A stretch of DNA of 48,701 bases from Bacteroidales bacterium (GTDB lineage: Bacteria > Bacteroidota > Bacteroidia > Bacteroidales > UBA932): contig JAGBVR010000034.1 of NCBI GenBank assembly GCA_017630215.1, forward strand, positions 1-48,701, written 5' to 3'. How positions within the stretch are numbered: position 1 is the first letter of the stretch; the number at the start of each line of letters is the position of its first letter. A program made the position numbers and the translations under genes. The notes under the pieces are model-generated. The model was not told where the DNA came from. It saw only the letters and a list, made by a program, of their open reading frames with translations, and searched no databases. Of the stretch, positions 18,819-48,006 are shown one piece after another.

Positions 18819-19811
18819 ATGGAGAGCATAAACATCAAAGAATTGAACGACCGTATCCAGAGGGAGAGCTCGTTTGTGGACATCCTGACGATGGAGATCA
18901 ACAAGGTCATTGTAGGTCAGAAACATCTTGTCGAGAATCTTCTGATCGGTCTTCTTGCTAACGGACATATCCTTCTTGAAGGTGTTCCCGGACTAGCTAA
19001 GACCTTGGCCATCAACACTCTTTCGCAAGCTGTGGACTCGAAGTTCAACCGTATCCAGTTTACTCCGGACCTTCTTCCTGCCGATGTGCTTGGTACTCTG
19101 ATCTATTCTCAGAAGACCGAGCAGTTCCAGATAAAGAAAGGTCCGGTCTTCGCTAATTTCGTGCTGGCTGATGAGATCAACCGTTCTCCGGCGAAGGTTC
19201 AGTCTGCACTGCTCGAGGCGATGCAGGAGCGTCAGGTGACTATCGGTGAGGAAACTTTCAAGCTTCCGGAACCCTTCCTGGTAATGGCGACGCAGAATCC
19301 TATCGAACAGGAGGGAACCTATCCTCTACCGGAAGCTCAGCTCGACCGATTCATGCTTAAGGTTGTAGTTACATATCCAAAGAAGGAGGAGGAACGCCAG
19401 ATCATCCGCATGAACAATACGGGAACTTTCCCTAAGGCGCAGCCTGTGCTCAAGCCAGAGGACATCGTCAGAGCACGCGAGGTCGTGAAGGATGTGTATA
19501 TGGATGAAAAGATAGAGAGGTATATAGTAGACATCGTATATGCTACCCGTACTCCGCAGGATTACGGACTGGGCAAGATCGCAAGCTTCATCTCTTATGG
19601 TGCGTCACCACGTGCAAGTATCTCTCTTGCAATGGCTTCTAAGGCATATGCATTCATAAAGAGAAGAGGGTATGTAATACCTGAGGATGTTCGTGCTGTA
19701 TGTTATGAGGTACTTCGTCACCGTATAGGACTTACTTATGAGGCGGAGGCCGAGAATATGACTACAGACCAGATTATTTCTGAAATCATCAATGCAGTAG
19801 AAGTTCCATAG
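18819..19811 (+). CDS. moxR: MoxR-type AAA+ ATPase of the Bat operon
   Basis: 330 aa. Walker A is GVPGLAKT (55-62); Walker B and the adjacent arm are VLADEINRSPAKVQSALLEA; sensor 1 is ATQNPIEQEGTYPLPEAQLD, the MoxR signature. MoxR ATPases act as chaperones or activators of von Willebrand A-domain proteins. Here it opens a seven-gene operon with DUF58 and two VWA proteins; its stop is one base from the next ATG. In Bacteroides the bat locus is linked to aerotolerance and stress; the biochemical task is not known. Confidence 0.93.
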   Translation: MESINIKELNDRIQRESSFVDILTMEINKVIVGQKHLVENLLIGLLANGHILLEGVPGLAKTLAINTLSQAVDSKFNRIQFTPDLLPADVLGTLIYSQKTEQFQIKKGPVFANFVLADEINRSPAKVQSALLEAMQERQVTIGEETFKLPEPFLVMATQNPIEQEGTYPLPEAQLDRFMLKVVVTYPKKEEERQIIRMNNTGTFPKAQPVLKPEDIVRAREVVKDVYMDEKIERYIVDIVYATRTPQDYGLGKIASFISYGASPRASISLAMASKAYAFIKRRGYVIPEDVRAVCYEVLRHRIGLTYEAEAENMTTDQIISEIINAVEVP

Positions 19812-19812
19812 G

Positions 19813-20703
19813 ATGTCATCGTTATCAGCAAACGACCTTCTGAAAAAGGTCAGGAAGATAGAGATCAAGACCAGGGCTCTGTCGCATCAGATATTTGCGG
19901 GAGAATATCACTCGGCCTTCAAGGGACGTGGTATGGCTTTCAGTGAGGTGCGTGAGTATCAGTATGGAGACGACGTGCGCAATATGGATTGGAATGTAAC
20001 CGCACGTCTCAGAGCTCCTTATGTGAAGGTCTTCGAGGAGGAGAGAGAATTGACTGTCGTTCTGCTTGTGGATGTCAGCCGTTCAAGGCTCTTCGGTACT
20101 GTCGGGGCCAGCAGGAAGGACATGCTTGCGGAAATTGCGGCAGTATTGTCCTTTTCTGCCATTATCAATAACGACAAGGTGGGTGCCCTGTTCTTCAGCG
20201 ACAAGGTAGAGAAATTCATCCCTCCGAAGAAGGGACGAAGCCACCTCTTGCATATAATCCGCGAAATCATTGAATTCGAGCCAGATACGGACGGCACTGA
20301 CATTTCAGAGGCGCTTCGTTATCTGACCAATGCGATCAAGAAGAAATGTACGGCATTTCTTTTATCAGATATGCTGGATGTCAATGAAGACGGCGCACCT
20401 CGATACGAGGAAGCTCTAAAGGTTGCTGTAAACAGACATGATCTCTCGATAATTGAAGTCTACGACCCTCGTGAGAGAAGTATTCCTGATGTGGGGCTGG
20501 TACATATCAAGGATTCAGAGACCGGCAAGGCTGCCTGGATAAATACTTCCAGCAAGAAGATGAGACTGGCCTATGAAGAGTGGTTCCGCAATGTGGAGAA
20601 TACCGCTTCGCGTCTTTGCCTGAAATACAATATCGACAAGGTAAGCATTGCTCTGGATGAGGATTATGTTAAAGGACTGATGACATTGTTTAAAAACAGA
20701 TAA
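19813..20703 (+). CDS. DUF58-domain protein of the Bat operon
   Basis: 296 aa. The DUF58 signature is clear: FAGEYHSAFKGRGMAFSEVR, then EYQYGDDVRNMDWNVTAR, and a degenerate VWA-like fold follows (TVVLLVDVSRSRLFG, with a DxSxS-like DVSRS). It is cytoplasmic, with no signal peptide. It is located one base after moxR and 6 bp before the next gene. The moxR/DUF58/VWA order is conserved in Bacteroidetes. Confidence 0.92.
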   Translation: MSSLSANDLLKKVRKIEIKTRALSHQIFAGEYHSAFKGRGMAFSEVREYQYGDDVRNMDWNVTARLRAPYVKVFEEERELTVVLLVDVSRSRLFGTVGASRKDMLAEIAAVLSFSAIINNDKVGALFFSDKVEKFIPPKKGRSHLLHIIREIIEFEPDTDGTDISEALRYLTNAIKKKCTAFLLSDMLDVNEDGAPRYEEALKVAVNRHDLSIIEVYDPRERSIPDVGLVHIKDSETGKAAWINTSSKKMRLAYEEWFRNVENTASRLCLKYNIDKVSIALDEDYVKGLMTLFKNR

Positions 20704-20709
20704 TCGATT

Positions 20710-21711
20710 ATGCGTAAAGCATTTATATATTTGGCTCTTCTCTTGATGGGGGCGGTCATATCATCATGTGCTGGTAAGGAAGCGAAGGATACACGGCCAG
20801 TGAGATCCTTTCTCCAGCCTTTACAGGAGAGAGATTCCGTCCTTATTGCCGATCAGCTGCTGTATGGGTTCGAGCTTGATGGGGTGACGGAAGGCACAAA
20901 ACTGATTCCGGCAGAAATTGCAGACAGCCTGGATCAGAACATATTGAGCTTGTCACCTTGGATTCTTGATACTGTGAAGGTTACCAGGAACGGAAAGGAA
21001 AATCCTAAGACTCTTGATATCAAGGGTTCTGTAAGGATTGCTCCTTTTCTTGAGGGTGAATATGAACTCCCTCGGATCGAACTCAGGAGACTTGCACCTG
21101 ACGGCACAGAAGATACATTGTTCTTTGATCCTCTTCGTTTGGATGTTAAAACTATGCCGGTAGATACTGCGACATTCGTGATCCACGACATCAAAGGACA
21201 GGTTCGTTATCCTGTGACGTTTGCAGAAGTTTTCCCTTGGATTCTTCTGTATTGGGTTCTGGCTGTCATTATAATATTGGTGGTATGCCTTGTGATGATC
21301 CGTCGGAGAAAGCACGATCCCGAGTATGTGCGCAGGGATCCGGCTCATATTGTCGCGTTAAGACAGCTCGACAATTACAGAGGCAGTACTCTCTGGGCCC
21401 CGGAGAAGCAGAAGGCTTTCTATTCCGGTGTGACTGATACGCTCAGGGCATATATGGCAGAAAGATTCGGCTTCGGCGCGATGGAGATGACCACAGCTGA
21501 GATCTTCGATGAGATGAAGGACAAGGATGCTCCGGAGAAGGTGGTAGGAGAAGTCAAGGAGCTTTTCGAAAGGGCTGATTTCGTGAAGTTTGCTAAGTAT
21601 GTGGCTTCGGATGATGAGAATGCCGCGGCTCTTCCGGTAGCTGTACGTTTTGTTACGGAAACTTATCAGGCCGAGGTGGAGAATGAAGTTAAAGATGGAG
21701 GGACCGAGTGA
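20710..21711 (+). CDS. Membrane-anchored lipoprotein-like protein of the Bat operon (DUF4381-like)
   Basis: 333 aa. The N-terminus has a lipobox-like signal (ALLLMGAVISSCAGKE; Cys at about residue 20). A periplasmic beta-domain follows, then one membrane helix (about 178-198, ILLYWVLAVIIILVVCLVMI) and an Arg/Lys-rich cytoplasmic tail. In Bacteroidetes Bat operons this place between DUF58 and BatA is usually a DUF4381-type protein. Its function is unknown; it probably belongs to the membrane complex. The stop overlaps the batA ATG by one base (TGATG). Confidence 0.75.
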   Translation: MRKAFIYLALLLMGAVISSCAGKEAKDTRPVRSFLQPLQERDSVLIADQLLYGFELDGVTEGTKLIPAEIADSLDQNILSLSPWILDTVKVTRNGKENPKTLDIKGSVRIAPFLEGEYELPRIELRRLAPDGTEDTLFFDPLRLDVKTMPVDTATFVIHDIKGQVRYPVTFAEVFPWILLYWVLAVIIILVVCLVMIRRRKHDPEYVRRDPAHIVALRQLDNYRGSTLWAPEKQKAFYSGVTDTLRAYMAERFGFGAMEMTTAEIFDEMKDKDAPEKVVGEVKELFERADFVKFAKYVASDDENAAALPVAVRFVTETYQAEVENEVKDGGTE

Positions 21712-22700
21712 TGTTTTTTGAATACCCGAAACTCTTGTGGCTGCTTGTGATACCGGGCTTGATGGTATTGCATTATATTTATCTGGAATTAAGGGAAAGG
21801 CATCCTCATCTGAGGGTATCGACTTCCGTTCCTTGGATCAGAGGTGGAAGATCGGTAATGTCGCTTGTGCGTCATATTCCTTTTGTCCTGAGGACAGCGG
21901 CATTGGCTCTGATTGTCATTGCCATTGCCCGTCCGAGATCTTCGGAGCAGATAGAAAAGGTGGATACTGAAGGTATTGACATTATTCTGGCAATGGACGT
22001 TTCGACTTCCATGCTGGCCCGTGACCTGACTCCTGACCGAATCAATGCGTCCAAGGATATTGCCATTGAATTCATTGCGCAGCGTCCTTCTGACAGAATG
22101 GGTATAGTGGTGTTTGCAGGTGAAAGCTTCACCCAGTGTCCTCTTACTACAGACCGTGCGACATTGATCAACCTTATGAAAGAGGTTCAGACCGATCTTA
22201 TCGAAGACGGAACTGCCATCGGAAACGGACTTGCTACTGCTGTGGCCAGAATGAAGGATTCGGATGCCAAGAGCCGCGTGGTGATCCTGCTTACCGACGG
22301 TGTCAATAACAGAGGTGAGATTTCCCCTGCAATGGCAGCCGAGATTGCAAAGACATATGGTGTGCGTGTATATACGATTGGTGTCGGAACTGATAATGAG
22401 ACTGCTCCTTATCCGGTGATGACTCCATGGGGCGTTGAGATTCAGAATGTGAAGGTGGAGATCGACGAAGCCTTGCTTTCGCAGGTTGCTGAATCCACCG
22501 GTGGAAAATATTTCAGGGCTACAGACAATACCAAGCTTGCCGAGATCTACAGCGAGATCAACAAGATGGAGAAGGTACGCACATCGGTAGACAGCTTCCC
22601 CGTATATAAGGAACTGTTCGGGAAATTTGCATTGCTGGCGTTGCTGGCAATATTGCTGGAACTGGTGTTTAACTGGTTTATAATAAGGAGGTTTGTATGA
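21711..22700 (+). CDS. batA: BatA, VWA-domain membrane protein
   Basis: 329 aa from the ATG at 21711. A GTG three bases earlier is possible, but the TGATG overlap suits coupling to the preceding gene. Two N-terminal membrane helices (about 8-25 and 58-74) precede the VWA domain. The MIDAS metal site is DVSTS (96-100), with TDGVNNRGE further along. A C-terminal helix (LALLAILLELVFNWFII) anchors the domain. BatA with BatB is associated with aerotolerance in Bacteroides. The batB ATG overlaps its stop by 4 bp. Confidence 0.93.
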   Translation: MFFEYPKLLWLLVIPGLMVLHYIYLELRERHPHLRVSTSVPWIRGGRSVMSLVRHIPFVLRTAALALIVIAIARPRSSEQIEKVDTEGIDIILAMDVSTSMLARDLTPDRINASKDIAIEFIAQRPSDRMGIVVFAGESFTQCPLTTDRATLINLMKEVQTDLIEDGTAIGNGLATAVARMKDSDAKSRVVILLTDGVNNRGEISPAMAAEIAKTYGVRVYTIGVGTDNETAPYPVMTPWGVEIQNVKVEIDEALLSQVAESTGGKYFRATDNTKLAEIYSEINKMEKVRTSVDSFPVYKELFGKFALLALLAILLELVFNWFIIRRFV

Positions 22701-23701
22701 TAAATTTTGCTCAGGCACAATATCTTCTTCTGCTTCTTCTGGTGCCGTTTTTCTTTGTCATTCAGGCTGTAGTCCTGAAGATCAGGAAGAAACGCATCAG
22801 AAAGTTTGGCGATGAGGCTCTGGTGAGCAGGCTGATGCCTTCCTATTCTGAGGGCAAGACCTGGATACGCCTGGTGCTTTTCTCAATAGGTTTCATCTTC
22901 TTCGTCATAGGCCTTTCGAGACCTCAGATCGGTGCAAGGCTCAAGGAACATGAGACCAAGGGTGCGGAGATAATGATCGTGCTCGATGTGTCTAACTCCA
23001 TGCTTGCGGAAGATTATTCTCCCAACAGACTGGAGAGGGCCAAACTGGCTATTTCGAGGCTCGTGGACAAGCTTCGTGATGAACGTATCGGTCTGATAGT
23101 CTTTGCCGGAAACTCTTTCGTGCAGCTGCCTATCACCACTGACTATGTTTCTGCAAAGATGTTCCTCAATTCCATTTCCACAGAGTCTGTCCCCGTCCAG
23201 GGTACGGCGATGGGAGATGCTATCAGTACGGCGATGAAGAGCTTCAGCCTTCAGAGCGAGAAGAGCCGTGCAGTCATTGTGATTACTGACGGTGAGAATC
23301 ACGAGGATGATCCTGTGTCTGTCGCTCAGCAGGCTGCAGAACTTGGTGTGAGGGTCTTCACTATCGGAGTGGGTTCTCCGGAGGGCAAGCCGATTCCTTT
23401 CGAGGGGGAGCTCCTGAAGGATAAGAATGGTGAGATCGTGGTTACCAGACTGGATGAGAGTATCCTCAGGGATGTAGCTGACGCCGGAAACGGACTATAT
23501 GTCCGTGCGGGAACAAGTGAGTTCGGACTGAATCCGGTGATCAATGAGATCAAGAAGATGGAGGATGAGAAATACAGTTCGGTTGTCTTTGAAGAGTATG
23601 ATGAGCAGTTTATGAATTTCTTTGCTATTGCTTTGATATTCTTTGTGTTGGAAATGCTTGTGGGAGACAGGAAGCCTAAGAGGCATTTGTTCAGAAGATA
23701 G
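22697..23701 (+). CDS. batB: BatB, VWA-domain membrane protein
   Basis: 334 aa. Two N-terminal helices (about 8-27 and 57-73), a VWA domain with MIDAS DVSNS (97-101) and VITDGENHEDD, and a C-terminal helix (FFAIALIFFVLEMLVG). It is paralogous to BatA, with which it overlaps by 4 bp. A REP-like sequence lies between it and batC, the only sizeable gap (72 bp) in the operon. Confidence 0.93.
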   Translation: MINFAQAQYLLLLLLVPFFFVIQAVVLKIRKKRIRKFGDEALVSRLMPSYSEGKTWIRLVLFSIGFIFFVIGLSRPQIGARLKEHETKGAEIMIVLDVSNSMLAEDYSPNRLERAKLAISRLVDKLRDERIGLIVFAGNSFVQLPITTDYVSAKMFLNSISTESVPVQGTAMGDAISTAMKSFSLQSEKSRAVIVITDGENHEDDPVSVAQQAAELGVRVFTIGVGSPEGKPIPFEGELLKDKNGEIVVTRLDESILRDVADAGNGLYVRAGTSEFGLNPVINEIKKMEDEKYSSVVFEEYDEQFMNFFAIALIFFVLEMLVGDRKPKRHLFRR

Positions 23702-23715
23702 GAACTCGGTCTCAC

Positions 23716-23749
23716 TGTCGTTCTGAGAAGCAGAGCTACGTGAGAATCT
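23716..23749 (-). repeat. REP-like intergenic element, copy 3
   Basis: In minus orientation it reads agattctcacgtagctctgc then ttctcagaacgaca, matching copy 2. It sits inside the Bat operon between batB and batC. Confidence 0.6.
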
Positions 23750-23773
23750 TTAATATGACTATTGTAGATTATA

Positions 23774-24580
23774 ATGAATAAGTATAAAAACATATTCCTG
23801 TTGATTGCGATTCTGATTTCAGTGTCAGCGTGGGGACAGGTGGACAAGAAAGAAGTCCGTCGTGGCAACAGGGAGTTCAGAAAGGGGGAGTACGAGGCTG
23901 CCTTTCAGGATTATCTGAGAGCGGTGGAGAAGGATACTTCGTCGATTGCGGCGAATTATAATATGGCTTCTGCCCTTTATCGTATGGAACAATACGATCA
24001 GGCCCAGCAGGCTTTGGATCGAATCAAGGAAACAGCGCCGACCTCTGCTTCGGCGGCTGATTATCTGTATAATCTGGGTGATGTCGCCCTTCAGAGGAAG
24101 GATTATCAGGCTGCTGTGAAGGCTTTCGGAGAAGCTTTGATTCTCAGACCGGACGATCTGGAGGCGAAGGAGAATTACATTTATGCCAGAAAGATGCTGC
24201 AGAATCAGCAGCAGAACGATCAGAACCAGAATCAAGACCAGAATCAAGACGATCAGAATCAAGACCAGAATCAGGATCAGAATCAGGACGACCAGAATAA
24301 GGATAATCAGGATCAGAACCATGATAATGATCAGGATCAGCAGAACGATCAGAACAAGGATAACCAGCAGGACGATCAGGACCAGAACCAGGATCAGCAG
24401 CAGAATGACAAGCCTCAGAATCAGCAGAATCAGCCTCAGCAGCAGGAAGCTCAGATAACTCCTCAGGCTGCTCAGCAGATGCTCCAGGCTATCCAGGCCA
24501 AGGAAAAAGAGACCCAGGACAAGGTGAACCAGAAGAAGGCGGCGGCTCTGAAGTCAAGACAAAAGGATAAGAATTGGTAA
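23774..24580 (+). CDS. batC: BatC, exported TPR protein with Gln/Asn/Asp-rich tail
   Basis: 268 aa. It has a signal peptide (residues 1 to about 22, ending SAWGQ) and TPR repeats at about 27-135 (GNREFRKGEYEAAFQDYLRA, then AANYNMASALYRMEQYDQA, then YNLGDVALQRKDYQAAVKAF). From about 142 to 225 it is an almost pure Q/N/D tract with K, and it ends with a coiled KEKETQDKVNQKKAAAL segment. Similar low-complexity tails are familiar in Bacteroides BatC. It is probably a periplasmic scaffold for the other Bat proteins. It is 5 bp before batD. Confidence 0.9.
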   Translation: MNKYKNIFLLIAILISVSAWGQVDKKEVRRGNREFRKGEYEAAFQDYLRAVEKDTSSIAANYNMASALYRMEQYDQAQQALDRIKETAPTSASAADYLYNLGDVALQRKDYQAAVKAFGEALILRPDDLEAKENYIYARKMLQNQQQNDQNQNQDQNQDDQNQDQNQDQNQDDQNKDNQDQNHDNDQDQQNDQNKDNQQDDQDQNQDQQQNDKPQNQQNQPQQQEAQITPQAAQQMLQAIQAKEKETQDKVNQKKAAALKSRQKDKNW

Positions 24581-24585
24581 TATAT

Positions 24586-27195
24586 ATGAAAAGATTATTT
24601 GCAATGATTGTAATGGCCTTGGCCACAGTCCTCGCCTATGCTCAGACAGAGATACAGGTGCAGGTACATAACGTGGTGGCTGAGGATGAGCAGTTCAATG
24701 TTACATTCGTTATAGAAGGGGAGGCCAAGTCATCGGATTTCGCTTGGTCGCCAGGAGATGACTTCCAGCTCCTCTGGGGACCTCAGCAGGGACGTTCTAC
24801 AAGTGTCCAGATAATTAATGGCAAGACTACCAAGTCGGTTCAGACTACATATTCCTATGTGTTAAGGCCTGTCAGGACAGGAAAATTCACAATTTCCAGG
24901 GCAGTGGCAAAGGTAAAAGGACAGGAAATCCATTCCGCTCCGGTAACAATCGAAGTCGTGGCCTCCGGTTCTGCAAGATCATCTTCAGGTCAGTCCCAGT
25001 CTTCTGCCCAGCCAGCTCAGCCAAGACAGTCACAGACGGGTGCTGTTCCGGATGATGATATATTTCTGACCTTGAGTCTTAGCAGGACCAATGTGGTTGT
25101 GGGTGAACCAGTTACAGCTGTTATCAAGCTTTATCAGAGAGTGAATGTCGCCGGCTTCGAAAGTGCGGTTTTCCCTACATTCAACGGATTCTGGAGCCAG
25201 GAACTCGAAGCTCCTTCAAACATTGAATTCACTCGTGAGACTTATAACGGACAGATTTATAATTCTGCACTTCTCAGAAAATTTGTCCTTATTCCTCAGC
25301 AGCAGGGCCAGATCAAGATCGATCCGGCAGAGCTTGTCTGTCTTGTCAATGTAAGAGTGTCTTCGGGCGGAGCAAGTATATTCGATGGCTTCTTCGATGA
25401 TTACAGGACAATCAGAAAGAGAGTGTCATCCAAGGCGGTGACAGTCAATGTCTCACCTCTTCCGTCCGGCGCTCCGGCATCTTTTGCCGGTGGAGTGGGT
25501 GAGTTCGTTATTTCAGCCAGGGTCAGCAAGGATACCTTAAAGACTCATGAAGCTGCCTCACTGCTTGTGACTGTTTCAGGAAACGGCAATGTATCCCTGC
25601 TTTCGGCACCGAAGGTAAGCTTCCCGCCTGATATGGAGGTATATGATACAAAGGTATCGGACAGAATCGACAGAGGAGGACTTTCCGGCAGCAAGATGTA
25701 TGAATATCCTTTCATTCCGCGCAGCCATGGTGATTTTGTGATCGAACCGATAAAGTATTCATACTACGATGTAAACAAGAAGCAGTATGTGACATTGGAG
25801 ACACCGGCTATTCCTGTATTTGTGGAACGCGGCAATGAAACAGAAGCTGTTGCAGTCAGCGGTGGCGTTTCTGTACCGAAGGATGTCCGTAACCTTGGCA
25901 GCGACATACGTTTCATCAGCACCAAGGCTCCTGGACTTGCACCAAAGGGTGATTATCTGCTGGGTTCTGCATTGTTCTGGATCCTGATTGCTCTGCTTGT
26001 GGCGCTCGCAGTGGCCTGCTGGGCGGCTTTCAGACATATTGCAGCCAGAAGAGCGGATGTCGTAGGTACAAAGAACAGAAAGGCTACCAAGATGGCTCTT
26101 AAGAGGCTCAATCTTGCAGGAACATTCCTTAAGCAGAATCTTTACACAGCTTTCTACGAGGAACTTCACAAGGCATTGCTCGGTTTCATTTCAGATAAAC
26201 TGAATATTCCGGTGGCTGAGCTTTCACGTGAGCGCATTACTCAGACGCTCAAGGAGGGCAAGGTGGCAGATAAGTATATCGATACATTCATCAGCATCCT
26301 TGATGCCTGCGAATTTGCCCGCTATGCTCCGGATGCCGGACACGAGGCAATGGCTGCACATTATGATGCGGCTCTGGATGTGATTTCATCTATTGATTCA
26401 GATATGAAAGCTGGAAAGTCTGCTCCTAAGGGAGCTTTGATGGCATTTGTTGTACTTCTTCTCTGGCCGGTTGCTATTCAGGCTCAGGAAACGGAATATG
26501 CGGATTCCCTGTGGAATGTAGCCAATCAGGCATATGCAGAAGGCAGATGGACAGATGCAGTGGACGGATATGAAATGATATCCGGCATGGGACTGGAGTC
26601 GGCAGCCCTATATTGCAATACCGGTGACGCATATTTCAAGGAGGGAAATCCTGCCAAGGCCATCCTGTACTATGAACGTGCATTGAAACTGGATCCTTCA
26701 TATTCGGATGCAAGGTTCAATCTTGCTCTTCTGAACAATGGAATCCAGGACAGGATTGATTCTGTTCCTGAATTCGTGCTTAAGACCTGGTTCAGGAATT
26801 TCAGCTATATCATGGATTCGAACGGCTGGGCTGTATGCTTCATCGTATTCCTTGCATTGACTCTGGCGATGGTCCTGATGTTCATATTGGCACCTTCTGT
26901 TGGAGGAAGAAGGACCGGATTCTTTGTCGGACTGGTTATGCTGCTCGCTGCAGCACTGTCGCTTACCTTCTCCATATGGCAGAAGAATGATGCAATGAGA
27001 GCCGATAAGGCTATTATCATGAGGCCTGTGACATCGGTGAAAAGTTCGCCTTCCTCAGAGGCTTCGACCGATCTCTTCATTCTTCACGAGGGAACCAAGG
27101 TAAAACTTATCGATGAGGTGGGATCATGGAAGAATATCGAGCTTGCAGATGGAAGACAGGGATGGATCCCGTCCGCAGACCTTGAAGTAATCTGA
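24586..27195 (+). CDS. batD: Fused BatD-BatE protein (oxygen tolerance domain plus TPR/SH3)
   Basis: 869 aa from the ATG at 24586; the TTG at 24574 overlaps batC and lies outside the signal. Residues 1-20 are a signal peptide (MIVMALATVLAYAQ). BatD beta-domains cover about 25-450, with a membrane helix at about 461-482. A cytoplasmic segment follows to about 615. A second helix at about 618-636 (ALMAFVVLLLWPVAIQAQ) looks like the signal peptide of an ancestral BatE. It leads into TPR repeats (about 640-725), two helices (about 748-770, 779-798) and a bacterial SH3 domain (about 814-868, ending GWIPSADLEVI). BatD and BatE are separate genes in Bacteroides fragilis as I recall. The topology of the fusion is consistent, and no internal stop or frame change is seen. 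Confidence 0.88.
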   Translation: MKRLFAMIVMALATVLAYAQTEIQVQVHNVVAEDEQFNVTFVIEGEAKSSDFAWSPGDDFQLLWGPQQGRSTSVQIINGKTTKSVQTTYSYVLRPVRTGKFTISRAVAKVKGQEIHSAPVTIEVVASGSARSSSGQSQSSAQPAQPRQSQTGAVPDDDIFLTLSLSRTNVVVGEPVTAVIKLYQRVNVAGFESAVFPTFNGFWSQELEAPSNIEFTRETYNGQIYNSALLRKFVLIPQQQGQIKIDPAELVCLVNVRVSSGGASIFDGFFDDYRTIRKRVSSKAVTVNVSPLPSGAPASFAGGVGEFVISARVSKDTLKTHEAASLLVTVSGNGNVSLLSAPKVSFPPDMEVYDTKVSDRIDRGGLSGSKMYEYPFIPRSHGDFVIEPIKYSYYDVNKKQYVTLETPAIPVFVERGNETEAVAVSGGVSVPKDVRNLGSDIRFISTKAPGLAPKGDYLLGSALFWILIALLVALAVACWAAFRHIAARRADVVGTKNRKATKMALKRLNLAGTFLKQNLYTAFYEELHKALLGFISDKLNIPVAELSRERITQTLKEGKVADKYIDTFISILDACEFARYAPDAGHEAMAAHYDAALDVISSIDSDMKAGKSAPKGALMAFVVLLLWPVAIQAQETEYADSLWNVANQAYAEGRWTDAVDGYEMISGMGLESAALYCNTGDAYFKEGNPAKAILYYERALKLDPSYSDARFNLALLNNGIQDRIDSVPEFVLKTWFRNFSYIMDSNGWAVCFIVFLALTLAMVLMFILAPSVGGRRTGFFVGLVMLLAAALSLTFSIWQKNDAMRADKAIIMRPVTSVKSSPSSEASTDLFILHEGTKVKLIDEVGSWKNIELADGRQGWIPSADLEVI

Positions 27196-27210: not shown

Positions 27211-30393
<3,183 letters not shown>

Positions 30394-30535: not shown

Positions 30536-30567
30536 TTTGGAATTATGTGTTCTGATTGATATATTTG
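30536..30567 (+). promoter_or_regulatory. Promoter of the 30606 peptide and M64 lipoprotein unit
   Basis: TTTG (30536-30539), a 20-base spacer and TATATTTG (30560-30567), an exact Bacteroidetes match, about 38 bases before the peptide ATG. Confidence 0.75.
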
Positions 30568-30605: not shown

Positions 30606-30752
30606 ATGAAGAAAGATATTATTGTAACGGGCTCATACAAAAGTCCAGAGATTGTCATGGAGACAATTGAAATCGAGGGATTGCTCTGTCTTAGCGGAAA
30701 CCATGAATCCTTGACTGAAGACGATAGTTGGGGTGAACTTTTAGAGGATTAG
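30606..30752 (+). CDS. 48-aa peptide upstream of the M64 lipoprotein (family shared with 44831)
   Basis: 48 aa, from MKKDIIVTGSYKSPEIVMET to DSWGELLED. It shares length and motifs with the 48-aa peptide at 44831: MKxxxII, SP at about residue 14-16, EGxLCxSG in the middle, and a DDxWG-like C-terminus. It has no signal peptide or membrane helix; it is small, acidic and has one cysteine. It is the first gene of a two-gene unit, 6 bp before the lipoprotein ATG, with a strong promoter. Small acidic peptides of about 50 aa are widespread in Bacteroidales near surface proteins, but I know of no assigned function. It could be a leader or regulatory peptide, a ribosomally made precursor, or an accessory of lipoprotein export. 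Confidence 0.7.
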   Translation: MKKDIIVTGSYKSPEIVMETIEIEGLLCLSGNHESLTEDDSWGELLED

Positions 30753-30758
30753 GTAATT

Positions 30759-33713
30759 ATGAAAAGCTTAGGTAGATTCATACTGACGTTTGCAGCAGCT
30801 GCATTCTCGGTTTCCTGTGTGGAAAATATTTCAGAAGATCCGGTCATCGATAAGACCCCGGACTCTGAAGTTGTTGAAATGACTTTCACGGCTTCTTATG
30901 CTGATAAGACAAAAACAGTTCTTGTCAATGGCACCGAAGTATGGTGGAATTTTTGGGATGCCATATCAGTTAATGGAGATCCATTCTATGTAACTAATGC
31001 CAACGAGCCAGCCCCATATGCTGAATTTGTTGGTTCGACGGGTGTTTCAGAAAAATACCATGCTCTTTATCCTTATAACCCTGGCTGGATTTGGGAGAAC
31101 GATGTTACTGAAGTCTATATCCCAATCAATCAGTATGCTTCTAAAGGAAATATTACCGAAGATTGTTTCATCTCCACGGCTGTGGCAACAGATGAATGTA
31201 AGAACTTACATTTTAAGAATCAGTTAGGATATATAAAATTCTCTATCGATGAAAATACGGGTCCTGTTCAGTCCGTTTCAGTTTCGTCAAATGGAGGAGA
31301 GGTACTTGGAGGATGGGGTACAATCGATTTTTCCGGAGATGATCCGATTTTCAAAATGATCGAGATGCCGACAGCGTGGCCTATAACCCTGCTCTCTGAT
31401 TCGATTCTTACTCCAGGAGAATACTATATCGCATTGTATCCTGATACCTATTCGAAAGGTTTGACATTTACCTTCAATGATTCGGAAGGACACTCGATAA
31501 TAAGATCAATAAATAAAGAGATAACTCTGGAAAAGGGAGTAATCCAAAATATCGGCTTGATAAGTCGACTTGATTTTGCCGAGATCCCTTCGCAGCGTGA
31601 AGCATTGATTGCTTTTTATAATGCTACAAATGGAGATGACTGGATATGTAATACGAACTGGTGCAGTGATAAACCTATTTATGAATGGTATGGGGTAACC
31701 TGTAACTCATCTGGAGGGATATTGAAAGAAGAAGTTGAGGGTATTTATTTGACCGATAATAATCTCACAGGATACCTGCCTTCGGAGATAGGTGATCTTG
31801 TCACAATCAAAGATCTATGGCTTGATTCTTCCGGTCAGAACAAGATAGGCGGAACAATTCCAAAGGAAATAGGTAAACTGAAACACCTGAAGCAATTATA
31901 TTTGAATCACAACAGGTTGACGGGCTCGATACCTGCCGAACTATGCAATCTTAACCTTGAGGTTTGTTATTTGGGTGACAATATGTTGTCTGGGCAATAT
32001 CCGCCAGAGATAGCCAATCTGCTGGATGGAATCAGAGATTATCATTTTGAGTTAGCAGGAAATTCAATAACAGGTGCTATACCTCCGGAAGTCGCTTCTC
32101 ACCCTCGTTTTGAAGAATTCTGGCCAGAATTTCTAATGGGTATGGATTGTACAAATCCAGATCAATTGGATATATCGGACTTGGTAATACCTGCGCCAAG
32201 TGGTGTGGTTACTACTATTAATGGAGCGGATATCAACCTGAAAGATTTTTATGCATCCAATAAGTATACAGTACTTTATAATTGGGCTAGTTGGTGCTCT
32301 TATTCTCCAGCATTCACTACTGAACTGATACCGCTATATAAAGCATATAAGTCTAAAGGCTTGGATATATTGGGCTATGTCGGTGCTTCATCGTGGCAGT
32401 TCCCAAGTGATAATATTGAAACCATTCAAGCAGAAATAGATAAACTGGGAATACCGTGGGATAATATAGCGATGACAGACAATGATGAATACTATGTCGA
32501 TAATTATCTGTGTGCTATGTTCAAATTACTTACTCCTGATCTGCTCGTGGTAGACCATAATGGAAATATTGTTCTTCAGAATCTTTTAGATGTAACTGGC
32601 AGGTATGACAGAATGTTGTCATTTCAGGAATTTCTTGTAGAGCACCTCGGTGATGCTGATATTGAAGATCAGGAGTTATACAAGTCGACGGATTTCAGCC
32701 GTGATGGTGAGGTCGAAATGTTGCAGCAGGCAAAGCAAGGAAGAGGCATAGATATAGTCCTTATGGGTGACGCTTATTCAGACCGTCTGATAGCTGATGG
32801 TACTTATGTTTCTGATATGCAGGTTGTTGCAGATGCATTGTTTGAGGAGGAACCATTTAAAAGTTTCAAGGATTATTTCAATGTTTTTGTAGTTAACGTG
32901 GTGTCTGAGAATGAGGTCTATGTCAAGGGAAGTTCCACTGCGCTTGATACATATCATGTAGAAGAGACATTGGTGAAAGGCAATGATTCTGAATGTTTCA
33001 GATATGCCTTGAATGCTATATCTTCCGAAAGGATGGACGAAGCTCTTTTGGTTGTGGTGATGAATCAGAAAATGCACGCAGGTACATGTTATATGTACGA
33101 GTCTCTTTCTGATGGAGATTATGGTAGCGGAACTTCAATAGCATATTTTATGAAAGGCTTTTCGGATTCGGACTTTGTCGGGCTGATACAGCACGAGTCT
33201 TTGGGTCACGGATTTGCCAAGCTGGCCGATGAATATGCTTACGCAGAGAACGGAACTATTCCGTATGATGAAATTATCGGCAACTACAAACGGCTTGAAG
33301 CGAAAGGCTGGTGGAAGAATGTTGATTTTACAGATAATCCCGATGAGGTGAAGTGGAGTTACTTCCTTGAGGATGACAGGTATGCTTCTGAAGAACTTGG
33401 AGTGTTTGAAGGAGCCTGTACCTATTGGAGTGGAGCATATCGTCCGTCTGAGAACAGCATTATGAGGTTCAATACCGGAGGCTTCAATGCTCCTTCACGT
33501 GAGGCAATATATTATAGAATCCACAAACTGGCTTACGGACCGTATTGGGCATATGATTATGAAGATTTCGTGGAATACGATGCAAGGAACCGCGCATCTG
33601 CAGCTCAGGCCGAAACTGTTCTGAAACGCAAGGCGAACTATGTGGAAAGGACATTCGAGCCTACTCATCCCCCTGTGATCGTGAAGGGATCCTGGAGGGA
33701 TGCAGTGAAGTAG
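30759..33713 (+). CDS. Chimeric surface lipoprotein: fimbrillin-like, LRR, thioredoxin-like and M64 metallopeptidase
   Basis: 984 aa. The lipobox is FSVSC with Cys20, so it is a lipoprotein. Residues about 35-265 resemble fimbrillin-like N-terminal domains (EVWWNFWDAISV). Residues about 280-440 contain plant-type leucine-rich repeats (NNLTGYLPSEIGDL, NRLTGSIPAELCNL). Residues about 480-630 are thioredoxin/TlpA-like, but the active site is WCSYSP (W512, C513), with serine where the second cysteine should be. Residues about 655-970 match the M64 IgA-peptidase type: HESLGHGFAKLADEY (H812, E813, H817). Overall it should be a surface-anchored metalloprotease. The histidine spacing (HExxxH) is one longer than textbook HExxH; I recall similar HEAGGHGF forms in Bacteroides M64, so this needs an alignment. 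The gene is A+T-rich compared with its neighbours, which suggests acquisition. Confidence 0.85.
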   Translation: MKSLGRFILTFAAAAFSVSCVENISEDPVIDKTPDSEVVEMTFTASYADKTKTVLVNGTEVWWNFWDAISVNGDPFYVTNANEPAPYAEFVGSTGVSEKYHALYPYNPGWIWENDVTEVYIPINQYASKGNITEDCFISTAVATDECKNLHFKNQLGYIKFSIDENTGPVQSVSVSSNGGEVLGGWGTIDFSGDDPIFKMIEMPTAWPITLLSDSILTPGEYYIALYPDTYSKGLTFTFNDSEGHSIIRSINKEITLEKGVIQNIGLISRLDFAEIPSQREALIAFYNATNGDDWICNTNWCSDKPIYEWYGVTCNSSGGILKEEVEGIYLTDNNLTGYLPSEIGDLVTIKDLWLDSSGQNKIGGTIPKEIGKLKHLKQLYLNHNRLTGSIPAELCNLNLEVCYLGDNMLSGQYPPEIANLLDGIRDYHFELAGNSITGAIPPEVASHPRFEEFWPEFLMGMDCTNPDQLDISDLVIPAPSGVVTTINGADINLKDFYASNKYTVLYNWASWCSYSPAFTTELIPLYKAYKSKGLDILGYVGASSWQFPSDNIETIQAEIDKLGIPWDNIAMTDNDEYYVDNYLCAMFKLLTPDLLVVDHNGNIVLQNLLDVTGRYDRMLSFQEFLVEHLGDADIEDQELYKSTDFSRDGEVEMLQQAKQGRGIDIVLMGDAYSDRLIADGTYVSDMQVVADALFEEEPFKSFKDYFNVFVVNVVSENEVYVKGSSTALDTYHVEETLVKGNDSECFRYALNAISSERMDEALLVVVMNQKMHAGTCYMYESLSDGDYGSGTSIAYFMKGFSDSDFVGLIQHESLGHGFAKLADEYAYAENGTIPYDEIIGNYKRLEAKGWWKNVDFTDNPDEVKWSYFLEDDRYASEELGVFEGACTYWSGAYRPSENSIMRFNTGGFNAPSREAIYYRIHKLAYGPYWAYDYEDFVEYDARNRASAAQAETVLKRKANYVERTFEPTHPPVIVKGSWRDAVK

Positions 33714-44549: not shown

Positions 44550-44749
44550 TTTCTACTTGCACAGTTCCCCATATTATCAGTATACTCAAAAAGAATACGG
44601 CTATTTCCTGAAATCGCCACTCCAGCTATCTGAAAGCCCGATTTCGTCCTGATTTTTGTCCTGTTTTTATAAAAAATCCAACAAAATGTTCTAAGGAAGT
44701 TCCACGCTGTGACCTCTTTGAAGAAAAATTGCGGATTTATCCAAAACAT
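44550..44749. other. Gene-free intergenic stretch
   Basis: With its flanking elements this makes a 422-bp gap (44409-44830). I see no reading frame with coding character, tRNA or clear hairpin here. It has A/T-rich runs and a possible promoter only at its right edge (44750-44782). Confidence 0.6.
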
Positions 44750-44782
44750 TTGCCCTAATGTAAAAACAAATCCTTACCTTTG
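44750..44782 (+). promoter_or_regulatory. Promoter of the 44831 peptide and lipoprotein/endonuclease unit
   Basis: TTTG (44750-44753), a 21-base spacer and TACCTTTG (44775-44782), about 48 bases before the peptide ATG. This matches the layout of the unit at 30536. Confidence 0.75.
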
Positions 44783-44830: not shown

Positions 44831-44977
44831 ATGAAACAAACAAACATTATCTTGTGTGGCAGCAGCTACGAATCACCTGCTGTCCGTGTCCTCGACATTA
44901 TGTCGGAGGGCGTGCTCTGTACAAGTGGTACAGGTAACATTGATGACGCTCTAGAAGATGATTGGGGTACTATTTAA
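44831..44977 (+). CDS. 48-aa peptide upstream of the lipoprotein/endonuclease unit
   Basis: 48 aa, from MKQTNIILCGSSYESPAVRV to LEDDWGTI. It has the same length as the peptide at 30606 and shares MKxxxII, the SP pair, EGVLCTSG (EGLLCLSG in the other) and a DDWG-type end (DDSWGEL in the other). It has two cysteines, one in the shared motif. It is acidic, with no signal peptide. It is first in the unit, 11 bp before the lipoprotein ATG. The family is unrecognised by function. Confidence 0.7.
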   Translation: MKQTNIILCGSSYESPAVRVLDIMSEGVLCTSGTGNIDDALEDDWGTI

Positions 44978-44988
44978 TTCTAACGATT

Positions 44989-47151
44989 ATGAGGAAGATT
45001 TTTAAATCATTATTTGTAATCGCAGCCTCTGCGGTTGCATTCGCAGGTTGTGCAAAACAGGAAGTAGATACATTGGTCTCTTCTGAAGCAAAGACTGTTC
45101 AGTTCATTGCGCAGTCAATTGAAACTAAGACCGCCTTTGGTGCTCCTGATGGAGTAACTTATCCTACTCTTTGGACTGAGAATGATAAGTCGGTGAAGCT
45201 CTTGCTTAATTTGAATGAAGAGTTTACAGCTGATGTTGTGGTAGCAGATGATTTTAAGACTGCATCGTTCAATGCAGAAATTCAACTCAGTTCAAAACAG
45301 CCAAGCACCGCTCCATATACGTTTTATGCGATGAGTCCTAGCGCTGCGTATCTAGGCCATACAGCTGAAAGATATTCAGCTACAATCCCGGCAAGCCAGA
45401 CTCCGTCAGAAAATTCTGTGGATGAGGCGGCTCAGATTTTATATGCAGTCTCTGAAGAATTTACAGAGATACCAGAGTCGGTATATTTGAACTTTAAGCA
45501 TTTTACAGCTTATGGTAAACTGTCTTTTGACAATCTCGAACTTGCTGGTGCGAAAGTCACTTCTGTATCAATAAGTTCCCCTGATATATATCTGGCTGGA
45601 AGATGGAATTACATTGTGGCAGATGGTACATTTACTGAAAATTCTGGTGCTAATGAAATTACTCTCTCTACTGAAAAAACTCAGAATCTTTGGTTTGCTT
45701 GTGCCCCTGTTGGTAGTATGAATGGTAAGACTTTGAAATTTACTGTCAATACAGATAAGGGAACTATTGCAAAAGAAGTGAAGATCTCCGGTAACTATAG
45801 CTTTACAGCTGGCAGAATTGCAAATATGCACGTTGATATGGCCGGACTCTCTTTTGCAGCATCTAAAATTTACGAACTTGTTACTGATGTTGATGAATTG
45901 ACGGCTGAAAGTAAGATTATTGTCGTAGCCAATGATTATGATCTTGCAATGAGTACTACTCAGAATAAAAACAATAGAGGTGAGGCAGGAATAACAAAGC
46001 AGGGTAATAATATTCTAAATCCGGGTGATGGAGTTCAGATTATTTCACTTGAAAAAGGTGCTGAAACTGGTACTGTTGCTTTCAATGTAGGTGATGGATA
46101 TCTTTATGCAGCAGGTGGAACATCTACAAATAATTATTTAAAAACAAAGGCTGAAAAAGACGTTGTTTCAAGTTGGGACATTTCTATAAGTGCTGATGGT
46201 GTAGCCACAATTAAATGTGCAGATGGGAGTGTCGTAAGAAATACTTTGATGTATAATTCAGGAAATAAGATGTTTTCTTGTTATGCTTCTGGACAGAAAG
46301 ATGTTGCTATTTATAAACTTCAGGGATCAGGTACAGGATCTGCGCTAATTGTTCCTGGTGAGGATGAATCTACTCCTACGTATGCCTCTCTTGCTGATCT
46401 TGTTAATGCAGGTCAGCCAACTGCTGCTGGAACGAAGGTGAATGTAACACTCACCAATGAAAAGATTACTGGAATATATGTGACAAGCTCTGGTTATAGA
46501 AATGGTGTTTTCTTGATGGTAGGTAACCAGGAAATTGAAATATACTCTAGAGATGTTCCAACTGAATGGGAAGTTGGTGGAACCATCAGTGGCACCCTTA
46601 AGGAATGTGTTTGGAAACTTTATAATACAACATGGGAGCTGTGCCCATCTAATTGGTCTGAGTTGACATATATTGCTCCAGAAAGTGGGTCGACTGAGCC
46701 GGATCAGCCTGGTGAAGGTGGAGGAACTGAAGGTAATGTGGTTCTTTCAGAGCAATTTGATAATAGCACTACATCAGATAGTTCAGCCGCTATTGGTAAG
46801 GATAAATTTCCTAACTTCTCTGGTGATACAGATAAGGCATACACAAGTAAGTATGGTGGATTAAAGCTGGGTTCTTCAAAAGCAGTTGGCTATATTACTT
46901 CTAAGTCTCTTGATTTGTCATCATCATTTACTGTTCAAATAGATGCATGCAAATATGGTTCCGATACTGGTAGTATATTAGTTACTGTGGGAACTGTGAC
47001 AAAAACTATCCCAAATGGAGATTTGGGCGCAGCTGGGTCGTTTAAGACTTTTACATTAAGCTTTGATGCGGCTACAACTGCTTCGACAGTGAAGATTGCA
47101 ACTACAAGCAAAAGGGCATATATTGATAACGTTGTAATTACAAAATATTGA
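44989..47151 (+). CDS. Fimbrillin-like surface lipoprotein, ending in an in-frame TGA before a nuclease domain
   Basis: 720 aa from the ATG at 44989 (the TTG at 44962 lies within the peptide gene). Lipobox FAGC gives lipidated Cys21. Residues about 35-280 are a fimbrillin-like domain (YPTLWTENDKSVKL). Residues about 290-450 are a beta-rich domain of Bacteroidetes surface nucleases. Residues about 465-560 form an OB-fold-like domain (ASLADLVNAGQPTAAGTKVN, then GVFLMVGNQEIEIYSR). Residues about 590-720 form a jelly-roll-like domain (VVLSEQFDNSTTSDSSA, then RAYIDNVVITKY). The frame stops at TGA (47149-47151) and continues without any other stop into an endonuclease. It is A+T-rich until that stop and GC-richer afterwards. 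As written it is a lipoprotein with no catalytic domain. Confidence 0.8.
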   Translation: MRKIFKSLFVIAASAVAFAGCAKQEVDTLVSSEAKTVQFIAQSIETKTAFGAPDGVTYPTLWTENDKSVKLLLNLNEEFTADVVVADDFKTASFNAEIQLSSKQPSTAPYTFYAMSPSAAYLGHTAERYSATIPASQTPSENSVDEAAQILYAVSEEFTEIPESVYLNFKHFTAYGKLSFDNLELAGAKVTSVSISSPDIYLAGRWNYIVADGTFTENSGANEITLSTEKTQNLWFACAPVGSMNGKTLKFTVNTDKGTIAKEVKISGNYSFTAGRIANMHVDMAGLSFAASKIYELVTDVDELTAESKIIVVANDYDLAMSTTQNKNNRGEAGITKQGNNILNPGDGVQIISLEKGAETGTVAFNVGDGYLYAAGGTSTNNYLKTKAEKDVVSSWDISISADGVATIKCADGSVVRNTLMYNSGNKMFSCYASGQKDVAIYKLQGSGTGSALIVPGEDESTPTYASLADLVNAGQPTAAGTKVNVTLTNEKITGIYVTSSGYRNGVFLMVGNQEIEIYSRDVPTEWEVGGTISGTLKECVWKLYNTTWELCPSNWSELTYIAPESGSTEPDQPGEGGGTEGNVVLSEQFDNSTTSDSSAAIGKDKFPNFSGDTDKAYTSKYGGLKLGSSKAVGYITSKSLDLSSSFTVQIDACKYGSDTGSILVTVGTVTKTIPNGDLGAAGSFKTFTLSFDAATTASTVKIATTSKRAYIDNVVITKY

Positions 47152-48006
47152 CCATCATCCGGCGGAGGCGCCGGAGGTGATGAACCTACGGAACCGGACG
47201 ATGATGAGCCTGTAGTTCCAGATGAGCCCGCTTCTGTAACTCCAGCAGTCAATAAGGACTGGCTGGAGTTGCCGGGAGCGGTAAGCGGAAGCCAGTATCT
47301 GGTGAATACTTATTATGATGGTTCAGATAGAAATTATACCCATCTTTATGATAAGTCTACATATACTTCGCTCTGGACTTCATATCATCTGAATACGAAC
47401 CATATGGGAGGATTGTCTCGTCCTGATAACTGGACATATAGCCCAGACATCAGTACGTCTTATCAGGTGAATCTGAAGAGTCATAGTTATAATGACAATT
47501 ATTCCCGTGGTCATCTGATACCGAATGCATCGCGTAATGCTATCAAGAATATGCAGTTGCAGACTTTTTATGTGACTAACTCTGTTCCACAGATTCAGGA
47601 TAAGTTTAATGGTGGAATATGGTCGTCGCTTGAAAATGCTATACGTGCGATTGCTGAAAATGAGGAAATCTATATAGTTACAGGCGTTGCATTCAACAAG
47701 GTCGGAGAGAACAAGACGGTCAAATATACAACTGCCAAGGATGACACCAAGCAAGTTCCAGTACCGAACTATTTCTACAAAGTAGTTCTGAAAGTGAATA
47801 AGTCAGGCAGTACTGTGACTTCGGCTAAAGCTATCGGCTTCTGGTTCGAGCATAAGACCTACAGCGGTAGCAGCTATGCCAACTACGCTGTATCAGTGGA
47901 TGAGATCGAGCAGTGGACCGGCTTTGATTTCTTCGTGAATCTTCCGGACTCTATCGAGAACACGGCTGAAACCAATTCCAACTGGAGTTCGTTCCAAAGC
48001 TTCTAA
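47152..48006 (+). pseudogene. DNA/RNA non-specific endonuclease domain, in frame after a TGA and without its own start
   Basis: 284 codons, in the same frame as the lipoprotein. A Pro/Asp/Glu/Gly linker (PSSGGGAGGDEPTEPDDD, then VVPDEP) leads to the NUC-type endonuclease domain: NTNHMGGLSRPDNW, then NYSRGHLIPNASRN, the DRGH-type catalytic motif with Ser in place of the first Asp, and a further VTGVAFNK segment. No ATG or GTG lies before the domain; TTG at 47269 and ATG at about 47404 would cut the linker or the domain. It would be made only by TGA readthrough or after mutation. It may be a nonsense-mutated fused gene, a recombination product, or a sequencing error. Without the mutation the full protein would be 1005 aa. 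Confidence 0.75.

Follow-up and report, generated by a model that had tools for sequence, protein, structure and literature searches.

Small YxxP peptides encoded before lipoproteins in Bacteroidales as probable precursors of LPP-like modified peptides

Contig JAGBVR010000034.1 of a Bacteroidales bacterium (GenBank assembly GCA_017630215.1) raises the question of what two very small genes are for, each of which lies directly in front of the gene of a large lipoprotein. A sequence-only reading of this stretch of 48,701 nucleotides, which we call the window, took the two loci for a duplicated unit in which one type of peptide accompanies interchangeable secreted enzymes as a regulator, precursor or export accessory. 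Here, we argue that the two peptides are probably precursors of linear modified peptides that depend on a RiPP recognition element (RRE; RiPP, ribosomally synthesized and post-translationally modified peptide) and are of the same kind as the LPP family of Bacillota. Their genes would be mostly dispersed, matured in trans, and each paired with a lipoprotein. The peptides and their parts are as follows.

30606..30752, forward strand: peptide 1, putative precursor of 48 amino acids (translation; family membership)
30636..30695, forward strand: conserved 20-residue leader core of peptide 1, which starts with the YxxP Tyr and ends with the conserved Ser (alignments; column counts over 79 peptides)
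30696..30749, forward strand: variable acidic tail of peptide 1, the predicted core peptide (column counts; covariation of tail and N-terminal domain)
44831..44977, forward strand: peptide 2, putative precursor of 48 amino acids (translation; family membership)
44867..44926, forward strand: conserved 20-residue leader core of peptide 2 (alignments; column counts)
44927..44974, forward strand: variable acidic tail of peptide 2, the predicted core peptide (column counts)

Translation agrees with the earlier description of two peptides of exactly 48 residues and of the residues that they share, but the pair is no isolated duplication: both peptides are real and are members of a large family. A tblastn search with peptide 2 found 14 places in the window's genome (itself, peptide 1 and 12 more; E ≤0.06), and the family profile A4 gave 16 matches in that genome and 79 over 24 of the 59 genomes of its GTDB family. 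We used profile searches because a pattern scan of genome contigs with peptide 2 had returned 71 matches and no confirmed relative; a DNA pattern for EGxLCx was rejected as too unspecific, with 26 matches against 11 in the reversed control. In 14 aligned peptides of the window's genome, Y, P, E and G are invariant and L, C and S nearly so. Across the family the core runs without a gap as Y-x-x-P ... E-G ... [CA]-x-S and is followed by a short, variable, acidic tail. When the 79 peptides are positioned on YxxP, a placement that itself fixes Y and P, Glu occupies position 14 in 64, Cys or Ala position 18 (45 and 27 peptides) and Ser position 20 in 72. The tails are 5 to 28 residues long, rich in Gly, Glu and Asp, and vary in length and composition; 54 of the 79 peptides have a Trp within their final eight residues.

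That the peptides are translated under purifying selection, as had been predicted, is supported by a nonsynonymous rate (dN) below the synonymous rate (dS) in 11 of 11 related pairs, some of which overlap in their members. Peptide starts were placed at the nearest Met upstream of YxxP. Neither window peptide matches Pfam or NCBIfam up to E 1, and no obvious signal sequence was seen in the 38 peptides scored for hydropathy, in which the top 15-residue window averages 0.94 and never exceeds 1.4. Two members in the window's genome (L278 on contig C48 and L295 on contig C13) have different leaders and an identical tail of 13 residues, which may point to recombination or gene conversion affecting the tail. 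In two other genomes, G348 and G168, we noted peptides of 50-60 residues (L072, L077, L087, L094, L095, L099, L100) that carry YxxP at the N-terminus, a Ser around position 20 and longer tails, most of which end in R-x-x-x-W and acidic residues; no lipoprotein lies directly behind them. They are possibly a sister family; with no lipoprotein behind them, all such peptides of G348 and the majority of those in G168 were kept out of profile A4. A match to the kinase profile introduced below is present in G168 and none was found in G348.

The lipoproteins that follow the two peptides, and their parts, are listed here.

30759..33713, forward strand: partner lipoprotein 1, 984 amino acids, with lipobox, shared N-terminal domain, LRR, AhpC/TSA-like and Peptidase_M64 regions (open reading frame, Pfam, lipobox rule)
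30810..31523, forward strand: shared N-terminal domain of lipoprotein 1 (hidden Markov model envelope, residues 18-255)
32715..33374, forward strand: Peptidase_M64 domain of lipoprotein 1 (PF09471, residues 653-872, 1.6e-18)
44989..47151, forward strand: partner lipoprotein 2, 720 amino acids, ending at a TGA (open reading frame, lipobox rule)
45040..45798, forward strand: shared N-terminal domain of lipoprotein 2 (hidden Markov model envelope, residues 18-270)
47152..48006, forward strand: Endonuclease_NS frame past the TGA, outside lipoprotein 2 on translation table 11 (PF01223, 5.2e-41)

The lipoprotein frames open 6 bp (30759) and 11 bp (44989) past the peptide stops, as the sequence-only reading had it, and the first protein does end in an M64 metalloprotease, with the LRR and AhpC/TSA-like stretches found by Pfam between its two ends. 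The endonuclease C-terminus given to the second protein did not hold: the domain is in frame but lies behind an in-frame TGA at 47149-47151, so that translation with table 11 leaves it outside the 720-residue lipoprotein. This TGA could be a real stop, the mark of a pseudogene or an assembly error.

The pairing seen in the window is general in the family, and the expectation that relatives would directly precede lipoproteins was borne out. A lipoprotein lies directly downstream of the peptide at 69 of 77 scorable loci; 62 were scored by rule, with the partner start taken as the Met that yields a lipobox, and seven by eye (L258, L263, L268, L269, L288 and L302, where the lipobox rule missed, and L299, where the frame is broken). 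Two of the 79 loci, L277 and L326, were dropped because they end at contig edges. Behind one peptide (L307) stands a signal-peptide protein without a lipobox, and behind seven (L290, L293, L309, L314, L315, L322, L327) neither a lipoprotein nor a signal-peptide gene. By the rule alone, a lipoprotein starts within 150 bp downstream of 60 of the 77 peptide loci, whereas for ordinary neighbours on the same strand in comparable regions the count is 78 of 409.

What the partners have in common is an N-terminal region of about 230 residues. Profiles built from half of the set recover 29 to 32 of 32 held-out partners, near-duplicates being kept between the halves, and match 16 of 107 other lipoproteins, at least six of which also sit behind a peptide (L129, L299, L115, L116, L108, L174). 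The full profile scores the window lipoproteins at 1.7e-52 (lipoprotein 1) and 1.7e-42 (lipoprotein 2), both being among its own seeds. The N-termini had been called fimbrillin-like; the fimbrillin model PF13149 matches neither window protein up to E 1, although both proteins carry the shared domain. The constant partner of the peptide is this N-terminal domain, whose type tracks the tail of the peptide.

Within genomes, the similarity of two tails follows that of the N-terminal domains of their partners with r 0.75 (permutation p 0.0005). With close paralogues removed the correlation is 0.44 (p 0.002) and the leader shows no tracking. Among partners of at least 480 residues, again without paralogues, r is 0.43 and 0.39 at two cut-offs, and the tail does not track the C-terminal 200 residues (r 0.03 and 0.07). 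The relation extends between genera, where over 1627 pairs tail and N-terminal domain correlate with r 0.29 against 0.02 (standard deviation 0.04; p 0.0005) in a null in which partners were shuffled inside genomes; for the leader, r is 0.05 (p 0.53). By eye, the tail class L-x-E-N-x-G-x-W with its close variants goes with one type of N-terminal domain in G000 (the window's genome), G011 and G031, and the class R-S/N-G-Y-G-x-A with another in G052, G014 and G033; in two of the 12 best between-genera tail matches the N-terminal domains are unrelated. These data suggest either that the tail meets the N-terminal domain, or that tail and domain are inherited together while a common receptor keeps the leaders uniform.

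Two units, L113 and L114, adjoin genes for an HprK-like P-loop protein, a PqqD-type RRE (PF05402), an ABC exporter and an S24/signal-peptidase-like protein. RiPP clusters can be recognised by a PqqD-like gene close to genes of enzymes and transporters (PMC7470986), and YxxP is described as an RRE-binding motif (PMC13381572, PMC12710340), in both cases as far as the excerpted texts go. The L113 cluster also has a nucleotidyltransferase of family NTP_transf_5 (PF14907, 2.5e-39), which is missing from L114. The catalytic residues of the set are conserved. In 11 kinase sequences, 11 of the 12 positions of the P-loop FLGxSGTGKSTH are invariant; Ser35, His73 and Asp88 of the peptidase are kept in 12 of 12 proteins picked by length and BLAST E value; and a C-terminal Asp is kept in 15 of 15 RREs, a candidate equivalent, by its place in the protein, of the Tyr-binding Asp of LppB. 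Matches of the peptidases to TIGR02228 (1.5e-6 and 6.5e-6) and of the ABC proteins of L113 and L114 to MsbA_lipidA are below the cut-offs of these models.

The peptides and this cluster occur together. In the family sample the kinase profile matches 22 of 59 genomes and PF05402 is found in 26, a few of these loci having no adjoining kinase. Kinase and peptide are both present in 19 genomes, the kinase alone in three, the peptide alone in five and neither in 32 (Fisher p 3e-8, in a test that, like the Fisher tests that follow, treats related genomes as independent and that uses two profiles with several seeds from the tested genomes, two of the peptide seeds, L187 and L191, being taken from cluster neighbourhoods). 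A stricter test, with a peptide profile made from the window's genome only and before the cluster was seen, gives 12, 10, 4 and 33 in the same order (p 4e-4), and counting by genus gives 11, 1, 0 and 13 (p 2.7e-6). The 61 genomes of the window's genus divide as 39, 9, 5 and 8 (p 0.005). In a sample of 295 genomes of the order the counts are 8, 9, 6 and 272 (p 5e-8), with a kinase cut at E 1e-37 that was set after the scores were known and that counts 25 of 42 matching genomes as carriers of other HprK-like kinases. The two kinds of gene are also often neighbours: a peptide lies within 5 kb of the kinase in seven of the 19 family genomes with both (G006, G009, G011, G014, G023, G037, G049), against 0.29 expected, and in five once two seed genomes are removed. 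In the order sample, peptide and kinase matches are about 80 bp apart in G076 and about 2 kb in G285. Taken together, co-occurrence and adjacency in relatives make a strong case that the peptides are linked to this machinery.

Against named genomes the kinase profile matched at least 547 places, of which we kept 80, from Bacteroidales or Bacteroidia (Cryptobacteroides, Muribaculaceae, Prevotella, Rikenellaceae and Alistipes among them) and from one Fibrobacter metagenome-assembled genome (MAG). In these 80 loci, some of them cut by contig ends, a kinase is labelled in 65, a peptidase in 55, PqqD in 53, an ABC protein in 47 and a nucleotidyltransferase in 17, and a peptide is found at E ≤0.05 in nine. 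Among the matches listed, the same gene set occurs in many relatives, often away from any peptide. The Fibrobacter locus (L404, titled Fibrobacter succinogenes MAG) carries, beside its kinase-profile match, two weak tandem YxxP peptides (E 0.04-0.05), and is either a case of spread beyond Bacteroidota or a mis-binned contig. We also noted fusions: in G003 the kinase is joined to an S24-type peptidase (L173, 503 residues), and in G052 and G034 its frame continues from a long N-terminal enzyme (L170 and L176, 728 and 725 residues), which we take to be IspG-like from its look.

We propose that these parts could work in five steps. First, the discrete PqqD-type RRE, whose gene in most cases has another place in the genome, would bind the YxxP leader. 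Second, the HprK-like kinase would act on the conserved Ser that closes the leader core, and the nucleotidyltransferase, where present, would modify that Ser further. Third, the signal-peptidase-like protease, with its intact Ser/His/Asp triad, would cut the leader off near that Ser; the Cys or Ala two residues before the Ser, itself preceded at a distance of two by Val, Gly or Ile, would make a fitting site for such a cut. Fourth, the MsbA-like ABC transporter would export the acidic tail peptide. Fifth, outside the cytoplasm, the tail would act together with the N-terminal domain of one lipoprotein, whose gene adjoins that of the precursor and is probably co-transcribed with it. Of the three roles offered by the sequence-only reading, precursor is the one favoured by the link of the peptide to a cluster of RRE, kinase, peptidase and exporter. 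It is conceivable, though we put it forward only tentatively, that one trans-acting line of kinase, RRE, peptidase and exporter matures many phosphopeptides and that the exported tails dock on the N-terminal domains of the neighbouring lipoproteins, as an address code that completes, gates or displays the adhesins and enzymes of one cell. Docking gains slightly in probability from the lack of correlation between the tail and the C-terminal 200 residues.

Several observations weigh against the precursor reading, in addition to the relatedness of the genomes and the shared seeds given above. Most peptide units lie away from the cluster. The window's genome (58% complete) has no kinase and no PqqD match, and G381 (91% complete, 16 peptides) has no kinase match; these are the two most peptide-rich of the 61 genomes of the genus. 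G033 (96%) and G051 (99%) have peptides and neither kinase nor PqqD matches. Among the near-complete genomes of its genus, 22 of 25 have the kinase, so that an assembly gap is plausible for the window's genome, whose maturation line we infer from its relatives. The label HprK-like rests on the P-loop alignment and on weak library matches (NCBIfam E 0.0035-0.04 for L114; for L113 a PEPCK model only, 0.0014). With paralogues still included, the tail correlates with the C-terminal 250 residues as well (r 0.54), and the leader shows a weak correlation with the N-terminal domain (r 0.23); the covariation could reflect linked inheritance without contact. Finally, a fold model of the N-terminal domain was too poor to use (predicted local distance difference test score 46.6).

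A simpler reading is that the peptide is a translated leader, an upstream open reading frame (uORF) that regulates its lipoprotein by attenuation or translational coupling and yields no mature product. In its favour, the peptide directly precedes the lipoprotein at a short distance (median 19 bp over 68 lipoproteins, 62 of which start within 40 bp), and each of the two window peptides has a promoter-like site ahead of it:

30536..30567, forward strand: promoter-like site TTTG-N20-TATATTTG before peptide 1 (pattern match)
44749..44782, forward strand: promoter-like site TTTG-N22-TACCTTTG before peptide 2 (pattern match)

These sites match what we take to be the Bacteroidales promoter consensus. 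The earlier claim of strong promoters is right as to the motif before each peptide, and the second spacer is N22 rather than the N20 or N21 that was given. The strict motif lies within 250 bp of seven of the 79 family peptides (0.45 expected in shuffles) and a relaxed form is found at 19, with none for the reversed pattern; the strict motif does not generalise to the family. The gaps range from 1 to 391 bp. Varied genes surround the units in the 20-kb stretches compared, and in nine of 45 units a co-oriented gene ends within 100 bp upstream, so that the peptide need not be the first cistron nor the unit begin an operon. In addition, the constraint acts on amino acids, over 20 gap-free residues, and a simple uORF would predict neither the co-occurrence and adjacency with the cluster nor the tracking of tail and N-terminal domain across genera. 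We therefore regard regulation by a uORF as unlikely. Upstream of the first unit, 18819-27195 of the window hold a run of Bat/aerotolerance type (MoxR AAA, DUF58, DUF4381-like, two VWA proteins, TPR and BatD), which is followed by a GH2 beta-galactosidase at 27223-30393.

The covariation and the tight pairing would also suit a peptide that chaperones or pilots the lipoprotein in the cytoplasm and whose co-occurrence with the kinase cluster would then be an effect of lineage. The lipoproteins bear their own lipobox signal, however, the kinase is found within 5 kb of a peptide in seven of 19 genomes, and YxxP is a motif known to bind RREs in the published texts as excerpted (PMC13381572, PMC12710340). 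This role, too, we consider improbable.

A further possibility accepts the peptides as substrates of the cluster and takes the lipoproteins for immunity or receptor proteins of an exported signalling or antimicrobial peptide. It draws on the same data as the precursor reading, including the presence of a neighbouring lipoprotein of its own for most peptides. What tells against it is that a genome may hold up to 16 peptides and that most C-terminal modules of the partners look adhesin-like, judged from the 25 most frequent of 47 Pfam families. Among 65 partners these include Lcl_C in 11, Fib_succ_major in eight, LRR_8 in eight, LRR_5 in seven, Big_2 in seven, Mfa_like_1 in four, fn3 in three and M64 in one. 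We consider an immunity or receptor role unlikely. The same counts do not support interchangeable secreted enzymes: the C-termini are varied and mostly binding or structural modules, and it is the N-terminal domain that stays constant. The Mfa_like_1 (PF13149) matches suggest that the N-terminal region may be related to that of Bacteroidales fimbrillin-like proteins; the other 61 of the 65 partners, both window proteins included, have no match at E 0.01.

The system has to be compared with known modified peptides. A double-glycine (C39) leader was considered for the peptides and dropped by eye. That they are lasso peptide precursors is very improbable in spite of the YxxP leader, the PqqD-type RRE and the acidic residues in the tails, since the lasso leader peptidase (PF13471, transglutaminase-like, B2) exceeds its cut-off in none of the 59 family genomes (weak matches below it in 10), none of the nine scanned cluster proteins was named as an asparagine-synthetase-like cyclase (the genomes were not searched for that family), and the tails vary in length and composition. 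The likeness to the phosphorylated lasso peptides of the paeninodin-like and Bsf kind is in the other parts: these too, in the excerpted texts (PMC7533575, PMC10368454), have a PqqD-like RRE, an HPr-kinase-like enzyme, a nucleotidyltransferase, an ABC transporter and a [Y/W]xxP leader; the Bacteroidales genomes differ from them in the leader peptidase. In the open PMC literature we found no paper that ties PqqD/HprK clusters of Bacteroidales to such peptides or lipoproteins.

The closest relative appears to be LPP (Popov et al. 2026, PMC13381572), a RiPP family of Bacillota with an RRE, an HprK-like kinase, a signal-peptidase-like peptidase, a nucleotidyltransferase and an MsbA-like exporter. 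In LPP, the YxxP leader of the precursor is read by the RRE, the kinase adds several phosphates to a Ser just past the leader, and the leader is cut off by a signal-peptidase-like enzyme (Ser, His, Asp), which the RRE assists. The authors describe LPP as restricted to Bacillota and without a known role, and the string "Bacteroid" is absent from the text. The Bacteroidales clusters resemble LPP in their discrete RRE, HprK-like kinase, archaeal-type signal-peptidase-like peptidase (Ser/His/Asp) and MsbA-like exporter, with a nucleotidyltransferase in some of them, and the peptides in their YxxP leader, the conserved Ser just after it and the variable C-terminus. By analogy, the peptides may undergo LPP-type chemistry. 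As with LPP in Bacilli, some clusters (L113, L174, L187) lie amid polysaccharide genes; by eye, the kinase, RRE and nucleotidyltransferase genes there stand among exopolysaccharide- or glycosyltransferase-looking genes. Two differences count against the kinship: the LPP consensus YxxPxVLxHQxIxFETxxS is not matched, HQ and FET being unconserved in the 79 peptides, and the Ser follows the Tyr by 19 residues instead of 18. The nucleotidyltransferase, moreover, is labelled in just 17 of the 80 kept loci.

The phylum of the Bacteroidales is abundant in mammalian guts, and parts of LPP type are now seen in Bacteroidales of gut and rumen samples, though LPP was reported as restricted to Bacillota (PMC13381572, as excerpted). 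The precursor-like peptides point to a possible partner for LPP, a specific domain of a lipoprotein, and because each peptide points to its partner, function can be tested gene by gene. Their short motif allows such small genes to be found. Our results suggest that a single kinase line may have an entire set of envelope proteins as its targets. In the excerpted account of LPP, one to three precursors lie inside the cluster of a Bacillota host; in Bacteroidales the precursors are mostly dispersed, up to 16 in a genome, and usually precede a lipoprotein. What is new with respect to LPP, as read from the genomes, is thus a putative LPP-like RiPP system of Bacteroidales whose precursors are mostly dispersed and are each usually paired with a lipoprotein.

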